Assembly (NCBI GenBank): GCA_030374765.1
Contig: JARGXX010000026.1
Location: 496,001-560,000 of the forward strand
From: Agarophyton chilense
Taxonomy: Eukaryota > Rhodophyta > Florideophyceae > Gracilariales > Gracilariaceae
DNA: 64,000 nt
Direction: 5' to 3'
Under the pieces are notes generated by a model that was not told the origin of the DNA, did no database searches, and saw only the letters and a list, made by a program, of their open reading frames with translations. Position 1 is the first letter of the stretch. Every line of letters begins with the position of its first letter. Shown in pieces: positions 59,917 to 61,266 of this stretch. The position numbers and the translations under genes were made by a program.

Positions 59917-61266
59917 ATGGCTCGCACTAAACAGACGGCTCGCAAATCTGTTGGTGGAAAACCCCCACGGCGCCAGCTTGTAGGCAAAGCGGCAATTATC
60001 ACAAGCGAGACACATCTTGACCAATACATCAACAAGAATATTTTCAAGCTTCTCTGTTCCAAACCGCAGCGCGGCGTGAGAAAAATCTATGCAACCACAT
60101 TCGAGGGCAGCAATAAGCTCGTGCGATTTAGCGAAAACGAAGCCATTATTTTGCTCGGGAGCAGGATAACTCATTGTATCCGGCAGTTTCGTGGCACGCA
60201 GTTGGCAGGGTTGATACAGTTCCGATTAAGTCTTACAGAGGCTTTGGATGACGACGACGATCCCGATACCAGTATTGAGTATAACGATTGGATGATCGAG
60301 GAGGTATGGTTGTCAAGAGGAGGTCGTGGTAGAATTAAGGACCAATCTTTTGCTCTAGAGCATGGCACTAACGTAGTGTGGCGCATCGATATGCATACTT
60401 TTCGAATCGCGTACAGTCAGGGAGTTGGCGGTATGGCGTCGTGGAGTAGGGTGACGTATGATGGCGAAGGAGCAGAATGAACCTTTCATTGGGGAGGTAA
60501 GGACCGGTATGAAGCTATCGAGAGCATTCTGGCTACTTGCAGCGCAAAACCAGGTCAAAGGCTCACTGTGCTCTAACCCTAAGCGCGGATTCCATCGTCG
60601 GGCGTCCACAATTTCCATCTCCGTCACACATCCGTGCAGTTTCGCGACGAGACACTTTTGTGCCTTGAAGTTTCTTTAAGTAACGCATTAGATCTCACAA
60701 TTGGGTCCGAGAAGGCTTCTGAGTGTTGGGCGTAACTCGTCAATCGCGTTAGGAAGAACGCAGACGATAATGAGATGTACTTGAATGCCGTTGCAGGTCT
60801 TGGGTTTGGTGATATTCTGGAGCTTAAATATTGGAACCGAAAGACCCAAAGGGAGGTCCGAGGAAAGTTTCGGGACCTCAAGGATATGCAGAGGTTTATT
60901 CGGGAAAAGAGCCGTGTTATAAGCCACGATTACCTTCGCGATGCGACTGGACACCGAGAAGAAAACTTCGATTTGGATAACTTTCGCGATAGCGGAATGG
61001 TCTTCCCTGCCAGACTTCAGGAGATTGACGGATACCTGCATGCGATTTGCATAGATGGGGAGCGCAACATGATTATTGATCCAGTGGAGAAGTATCACAT
61101 GGATGTCACGCAGGTTGCTCTCGAGTCCTGTGTTGGATCAGACCGTTCTTTTAGTCACATTGCGGACTGTCGCATAGTGTGCTTGCTCTCAGGGAGGAAG
61201 GATGGGAAACGCGCTCGCTGCGGGAAGAAACGTCGTCACCAAGAAGGTTCTTCAAACAGGGTTTGA
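59917..61266 (+). pseudogene. Histone H3-tail fusion protein with papain-like protease-like C-terminus
   Basis: One frame of 450 codons with four stops (60478, 60574, 60580 and 60733) and no frameshift. After Met the first ten residues, [10 protein letters not shown], are identical with the histone H3 tail, and 20 of the first 25 match (T11V, A15P, K18R, A21V, T22G), keeping R2, K4, R8, K9, S10, K14, R17 and K23. Similarity then ends: no histone fold follows. The middle (about 26-185) is unrecognised, with an acidic run 'DDDDDPDTS'. The last third has 'ASECWALV' (Cys270), 'YLHAICID' (His375) and 'MIIDPVEKY' (Asp388), an order and context like papain-fold cysteine peptidases. The end is basic (GKRARCGKKRRH), possibly nuclear. 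The tail could be a substrate for H3-modifying enzymes. Protease assignment is inference. Confidence 0.7.

Follow-up and report, generated by a model that had tools for sequence, protein, structure and literature searches.

Some transposons are known to read histone marks, and the chromodomains of chromovirus integrases mark LTR elements which use the histone code as readers. Histone mimics, as found in viruses and among host proteins, are non-histone proteins that feature an H3-like stretch, mostly a short motif. The VANDAL elements are DNA transposons. VANDALs encode VANC, a TE-encoded anti-silencing protein (PMC5735166). The plant LTR elements Retand, Grande and RIRE2 are known to carry antisense ORFs in the interval from pol to the 3′ LTR, the role of which is reported as unknown (PMC11963269).

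The window analyzed here is the whole stretch of 64,000 nucleotides taken from the genome of the red alga Agarophyton chilense (C26:496001–560000), and houses an ORF with an H3-like N-terminus. In contrast to the short motifs of most known histone mimics, the H3-like stretch measures 26–27 residues and sits at the true N-terminus. As with the chromovirus chromodomains, an LTR element is linked to the histone code; unlike these domains, which read, the H3-tail protein would be read. The ORF resembles the plant antisense ORFs in being an extra gene, antisense to gag-pol, in the interval between pol and the 3′ LTR; the plant ORFs are reported in most elements of the lineage and in distant species (PMC11963269). 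It differs from those of Retand, which is described there as a Gypsy lineage with antisense ORFs mostly encoding a TRP28 domain, as here the element is copia, and the protein has an H3 tail and a body with no Pfam match (PMC11963269). Like VANC, the product would be a TE-encoded accessory protein, and the proposed benefit, escape from silencing, is the same; unlike VANC, which is sequence-specific and binds motifs in the element DNA, the means proposed here is the imitation of H3 (PMC5735166). No transposon with an H3 tail was found among the papers listed when the open-licence literature was searched for such elements or for histone mimicry. Antisense ORFs, transposon-encoded anti-silencing and histone mimicry are all known in kind, and their combination appears to be new.

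The frame spans positions 59917–60480 of the plus strand (187 aa) and is closed by a TGA at codon 188. Codons 1–27 (59917–59997) encode the H3-like tail, in which 21/27 residues are those of the host H3 gene at C16; the host H3 genes at C1, C16 and C135 share an identical 27-residue N-terminus. K4, K9, S10, K14 and K23 are in H3 register, T11 is changed to V, K18 to R, and K27 is missing. A phmmer search of PDB sequences with the window protein gave 132 matches, the best 60 of which are chains and peptides of H3 or H3 variants (best E 7.2e-6). In these 60 the alignment to H3 stops at residue 22–29, outside the histone fold, and the 187-aa protein has no Pfam domain at E ≤1; neither measure reveals a histone fold after the tail. 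The window ORF carries a genuine H3 tail on a non-histone protein. The sequence criterion of a histone mimic, an H3-like stretch in a non-histone protein, describes this ORF as well as P0003 and P0004, two predicted proteins of Chondrus crispus. The initial annotation had noticed the near-identity of the N-terminus to the H3 tail, the canonical spacing of the five residues listed above and the lack of a fold downstream, and these observations hold. Its limits for the feature, 59917–60150, were too short, as the ORF reaches 60480 and the homologous frame 61266, within a retrotransposon which starts near 59400 and continues beyond the window.

A retrocopy or an exon of H3 was considered and ruled out. 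The H3 genes at C16 and C135 are intronless and read straight through, the C1 gene is interrupted around codon 45, the frame of an H3-like gene at C113 is broken near codon 16, and none of the H3 genes is interrupted at codon 25–27. Rejection of a retrocopy, proposed at the outset on the ground that only the tail is present, is confirmed. An H3 intron after codon 25, joined to a lone chimera devoid of relatives, had been named as the finding that would speak against a meaningful fusion; no such intron was found at C16 or C135, and relatives number in the dozens. Coding on the opposite strand was also rejected: the shadow ORF opposite the tail measures at most 223 aa, and its first codon position corresponds to the third position of the plus-strand frame, which is the most variable (by hand, in L003).

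The window ORF is the accessory gene of an old Ty1/copia LTR retrotransposon of ~7 kb, in which it resides between pol and the 3′ LTR, antisense to pol. The matched part of the LTR (the 3′ LTR in pol sense; 216–218 bp in the L027 copy) covers positions 59400–59593, and is followed by a leader common to the copies (59594–59916, plus strand), a putative antisense promoter site. The tail ORF begins ~310 bp internal to the 3′ LTR and heads toward the end of pol. The full homologous frame measures 449 codons, and is made of the H3 tail (residues 1–26), a middle part, a C-terminal part in which a Cys, a His and an Asp are conserved, and a basic end. In the window copy, the open 187-aa part aligns with the N-terminal part of P0003, and the remainder of the same frame (60481–61266, plus strand) corresponds to the protein's C-terminal part. 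The copy is dead, as stops at codons 188, 220, 222 and 273 come ahead of the last one, at codon 450, which marks the same end point as the L027 ORF. The segment C26:556574–557263, in frame with the window ORF, is 75% identical to residues 3–232 of the L027 C-terminal part. An open C-terminal piece of 163 aa (60775–61266, plus strand) retains the conserved His and Asp and has a basic end that is NLS-like by eye; the conserved Cys lies upstream of the piece. The minus strand carries the C-terminal end of pol (61255–61878), RNase H-like by eye and resembling by eye the terminal portion of the L013 pol ORF (best Pfam E 0.11, uncalled), a broken copia reverse transcriptase (RT; 61928–62681), in which RVT_2 matches positions 62454–62681 (E 1e-4, 22.4 bits, under the 31.6 cut-off), and further broken ORFs from the integrase side of pol (62921–63958), which resemble by eye the L027 ORF at 5199–6494 and gave no Pfam call, the two pieces searched being devoid of copia domains.

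L027, at C106, is an element complete in outline. Its LTRs (~1763–1978 and 8510–8727) measure 216–218 bp, are 79.6% identical, and are bounded by TG...CA by eye. Pol-type ORFs are on the minus strand, and the tail ORF is on the plus strand, from position 2292. The L027 RT matches RVT_2 at E 2.5e-9 (37.5 bits, over the 31.6 cut-off). Integrase-like sequences were seen by eye ahead of the RT in L013 and L014, Pfam being silent on the pieces searched. No target-site duplication was seen by eye at L027, an old copy inside a duplicated block. An LTR pair at C26:180683–187718 spans ~7.0 kb, and the sequence shared among several copies runs from ~520 bp before the ATG to ~+5 kb.

Many copies of the ORF mark the 79.8-Mb genome assembly. 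A search with the window protein gave 93 rows, which correspond to the three H3 genes and to 58 other loci, once matches on the same strand separated by gaps <2 kb are merged. When the host H3 tail was the query, 36 places were found: the three canonical H3 genes, the H3-like gene at C113 with its frame break, and 32 family members, all of which are also among the matches of the window protein. Five of the 32 tail-bearing places (C14, C81, C82 twice, C106) reside in near-identical blocks and have equal scores, so ~28 of the 32 are taken as independent. The blocks at C82, C14, C81 and C106, which carry the same element copy, are probably segmental duplications.

Copia elements abound, with 1517 first-look RT candidates in the genome (150 scored). 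Linkage of the loci to RTs was assessed in the best 150 of 590 first-look candidates. At this depth, an RT is found 1.0–4.5 kb downstream at 28 or more of the 58 loci, and is on the opposite strand in 28/28; four of these 28 sit in near-identical blocks. The other 30 loci have no RT in that interval among the matches listed, which may reflect decay, deletion, or an RT outside these matches. Within 5 kb on either side of the loci, the same 150 candidates include 50 RT rows on the opposite strand and one on the same strand (C7:243910), which is 28% identical and upstream of its locus. LTRs were looked for among the best 40 of 88 candidates. Among these 40 matches, an LTR lies just before the ATG at at least 10/58 loci and downstream at at least 16 (in 12 the distance is +5.5 to +7.3 kb, in the other 4 it is +15 to +18 kb); the far LTR of the window copy is not among the 40. 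LTRs flank at least 6 loci on both sides, two of which have the far LTR at +15 and +17 kb. The antisense placement of the accessory ORF between pol and the 3′ LTR holds for this family. Place and orientation, fixed in the 28/28 RT-linked loci among the matches listed, argue against a chance chimera or a piece of host gene carried along by the element, as do the coding signal and the Chondrus relatives described below; the decayed state of the window copy is all that speaks for such an origin, which is extremely improbable.

Coding signal and selection were analyzed in an alignment of 29 copies, with the window copy as both the reference and one of the 29. In codons 28–449, pairwise differences at codon positions 1, 2 and 3 are.172,.159 and.258. 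In the tail the corresponding values over the 29 copies are.197,.218 and.249, and the excess at third positions is weak. By leader and tail, 22 of the 29 copies were split by eye into subfamilies A and B, 7 being unassigned. When majority sequences (75% rule) of 14 A and 8 B copies are compared, the tail differs at 2/48 first and second positions and at 5/25 third positions (Fisher p 0.04), the remainder of the frame at 36/770 and 47/333, respectively (p 2e-7). After removal of four poor rows, the pN/pS ratio was calculated for the remaining 11 A and 7 B copies. As pairwise figures, uncorrected for relatedness, the ratios in the tail and outside are 0.40 and 0.37 between A and B, 0.73 and 0.53 within A, 1.06 and 0.63 within B. 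The plain reading of these ratios suggests constraint while the element was mobile and decay after landing. Copies are mostly dead, and the near-neutral tail ratios within subfamilies (0.73, 1.06) weigh against the case for mimicry. In pairwise comparisons to the host H3 genes, the tail has pN 0.18–0.22 and pS 0.62–0.88; the host genes differ from each other by pS 0.56–0.70 and pN 0. Silent sites in the tail are near saturation and pN is ~0.2, which suggests that residues were held while elements were active, and that the tail has long resided in the element.

Residues were counted in 27 tails: the divergent copy at C128 was added to the 29 copies, and three copies in which the tail is scant or missing were set aside. 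Q5 (26), K23 (25), K4, K9 and G12 (24 each), S10 and Q19 (23 each), R2 and R8 (22 each), K14 (21) and R26 (19) are kept in most, and 24 tails have a letter at the Met position. T11 is kept in 1 tail only, K18 and T22 in none, and K27 is absent from all 30 tails compared. The Chondrus tail keeps R2, T3, K4, Q5, T6, A7, K9, S10, T11, K14, K18 and K23, and has lost R8. Residues important for such mimicry would be those mostly kept, K4, K9, S10 and K23; this family has dispensed with K18 and K27. T11 is borne by just one of the 27 tails, that of L032 (C128:816000–817800), a divergent member with a mariner/Tc1-like sequence close downstream by eye. L051 (C113:928960–929480), the H3-like gene interrupted near codon 16, has G1 and I20 in common with the divergent tail copy C128:816981.

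Searches with single sequences of a set of 5.8 billion proteins gave nothing at E 0.001; a profile search of the same set gave 15 matches at E 0.01, three of which are relatives. The other 12 were taken as histones: they score E 4e-4 to 2e-3, cover ≤9% of the first query or have no BLASTP match, and all are assigned to PF00125, the histone family. C. crispus contributes P0003 (403 aa, E 5e-64) and P0004 (351 aa, E 3e-53), the latter ending short of the basic C-terminal end. Their tails have the same start, and 23/27 and 24/27 residues, respectively, as in H3 (by eye). A search of red algal proteins for the same tail on a non-H3 body, suggested along with the initial annotation, finds such proteins in this species. 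No relatives of P0003 were found in the viral contigs searched. P0003 is 33% identical to the window ORF over 171 positions and 30% identical to a longer relative, L002, over 283 positions, with 77/292 identities to the L002 body.

By region, P0003 and the window copy share 20/27 tail residues (74%) and 34/137 residues of the body (~25%). The tail might be a mere basic leader, active in nuclear import or nucleic-acid binding, picked up from H3 by chance and with a likeness of no use. This is quite unlikely, as the tail is kept far better than the body, and retention of R2-T3-K4-Q5-T6 and K9-S10 alongside saturating silent sites is hardly to be expected of a generic leader; the near-neutral decay of the tail within subfamilies fits such a leader, as does the basic, non-H3-like N-terminus found in a second family of the same genome, with uninterrupted frames (see below). 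Another alternative is that related elements captured the 5′ end of H3 separately in the two algae. The P0003 tail is nearer to H3 (23/27, by eye) than to the window tail (20/27), and the two tails have in common, by eye, no residue derived relative to H3, as two captures would have it. They have the same start, a similar junction and a homologous body, and the N-terminus of the second family matches that of L002 at 10/27 positions, as if it were a remnant; a double capture is unlikely, yet has an appreciable chance. If true, the capture of the same H3 piece twice would itself argue for mimicry.

The second family is represented by L049 (C92:376215), which has the same body in an uninterrupted 424-aa frame. 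Its N-terminus is basic and not H3-like (7/27 residues as in P0003), and its body is closer to P0003 (138/372) than is the body of the window family. Three further near-complete copies are 96–98% like L049, and two members, L049 and one 97% copy, have uninterrupted full frames. A tail-less relative is transcribed: P0002, from transcript GEZJ01002355, is 399 aa long and matches L049 at 98%, from L049 residue 26 onward, beyond the tail region. The tail-less family looks younger and more intact, and the protein may therefore work without the tail. Tail-bearing and tail-less members are interleaved in pairwise identities, which suggests either an old tail that L049 has lost, or two captures. As the two kinds occur side by side, comparing them offers a test of what the tail is used for. 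The C-terminal part also has more distant relatives, convergent with other copia RTs, at three places (C11:183236/184354, C131:435830/434610, C115:835588/834341). No H3 tail was found in 1.5 kb at C131 (L050), and none at C11, C131 or C115 among the matches to the host H3 tail; the accessory gene would thus be wider in range than the tail. Five loci (C96:53278, C88:100307, C77:644552, C100:127847, C71:2334910) are 95–98% like the L049 ORF and all lack codons 130–322, with the frame kept and 276 aa open. They are a young deletion derivative, perhaps non-autonomous.

P0003, L049, L002 and the window family have a common middle part, with no known relatives, and a C-terminal part with Cys, His, Asp and a basic end. 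In P0003, Cys 229 is near the start of a predicted helix (227–240), His 321 in a predicted strand (319–326), and Asp 334 at the end of a predicted strand (331–334). The Cys is kept in 6/6 rows reaching that site, the Asp in 7/7, the His in 6/8 (P in L027, Y in L002). The Cys/His/Asp part has no family match in Pfam, NCBIfam or PDB; the C-terminal profile, when searched against PDB, had two matches at chance level (E 0.13 and 0.2), and the predicted structure of P0003 is poor (pLDDT 37). From the C...H...D order and the predicted secondary structure, a papain-like protease may be guessed.

Imitation of H3 by the antisense copia accessory protein, most likely as an anti-silencing decoy, is on sequence grounds the best explanation, and a rather probable one. 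The protein would be made from an antisense transcript and enter the nucleus, the basic C-terminus being probably nuclear. Removal of Met1 from the Met-Ala-Arg-Thr-Lys start would leave a free A1-R2-T3-K4 N-terminus as in H3, and enzymes or readers of H3K4 and H3K9 might then take the protein for H3. Retention of R2–K4 and K9–S10 points to these enzymes and readers, as the loss of K27 points away from the H3K27 machinery. Most likely, the decoy would draw silencing factors off the chromatin of the element, or activating factors onto it; a C-terminal papain-like protease, if such it is, could be delivered to these factors. Anti-silencing is preferred for the benefit it would bring to the element, and the simplest interpretation is that of a decoy or recruiter acting at chromatin.

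The main functional rival is a tether, in which the tail would bring element proteins or the pre-integration complex to chromatin via H3-tail readers, and steer integration. The same sequence facts, the basic C-terminus and the abundance of copia elements (the 1517 first-look RT candidates, of which 150 were scored) agree with it; the ORF is separate from pol and antisense to it, hence outside the integrase polyprotein, and a tether is rather unlikely. With the decoy preferred, the fuller proposal would be a decoy histone of red-algal copia elements, a selection-held H3 tail on a nuclear, possibly protease-bearing protein, which either predates the split from Chondrus or was adopted twice; stated in full, and judged from sequences, it is tentative, with a chance just short of even. 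The interpretation of the initial annotation is supported in part, by the fusion to an H3 tail, the signs of selection, and the recurrence of both tail and body in C. crispus; recognition by chromatin enzymes or readers is its putative part. That the ORF is an antisense copia accessory gene, and that the window copy is dead, had both been missed. If the decoy is real, the transposon would pose as what the silencing machinery acts upon, rather than read the marks left by it, and presentation of the H3 tail itself would be a different way to meddle with silencing.

Other features were noticed in the window. Remains of another copia-like pol end are found by eye at 57710–58826 (plus strand), just left of the LTR of the element, and the sequence from ~58891 to the LTR is, by eye, in common with C8. 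Positions 18001–22000 have a G+C content of 0.64–0.76 per kb, compared to mostly 0.40–0.55 elsewhere, and contain GC-rich ORFs in a repeat-rich setting, one of which is bZIP-like by eye.
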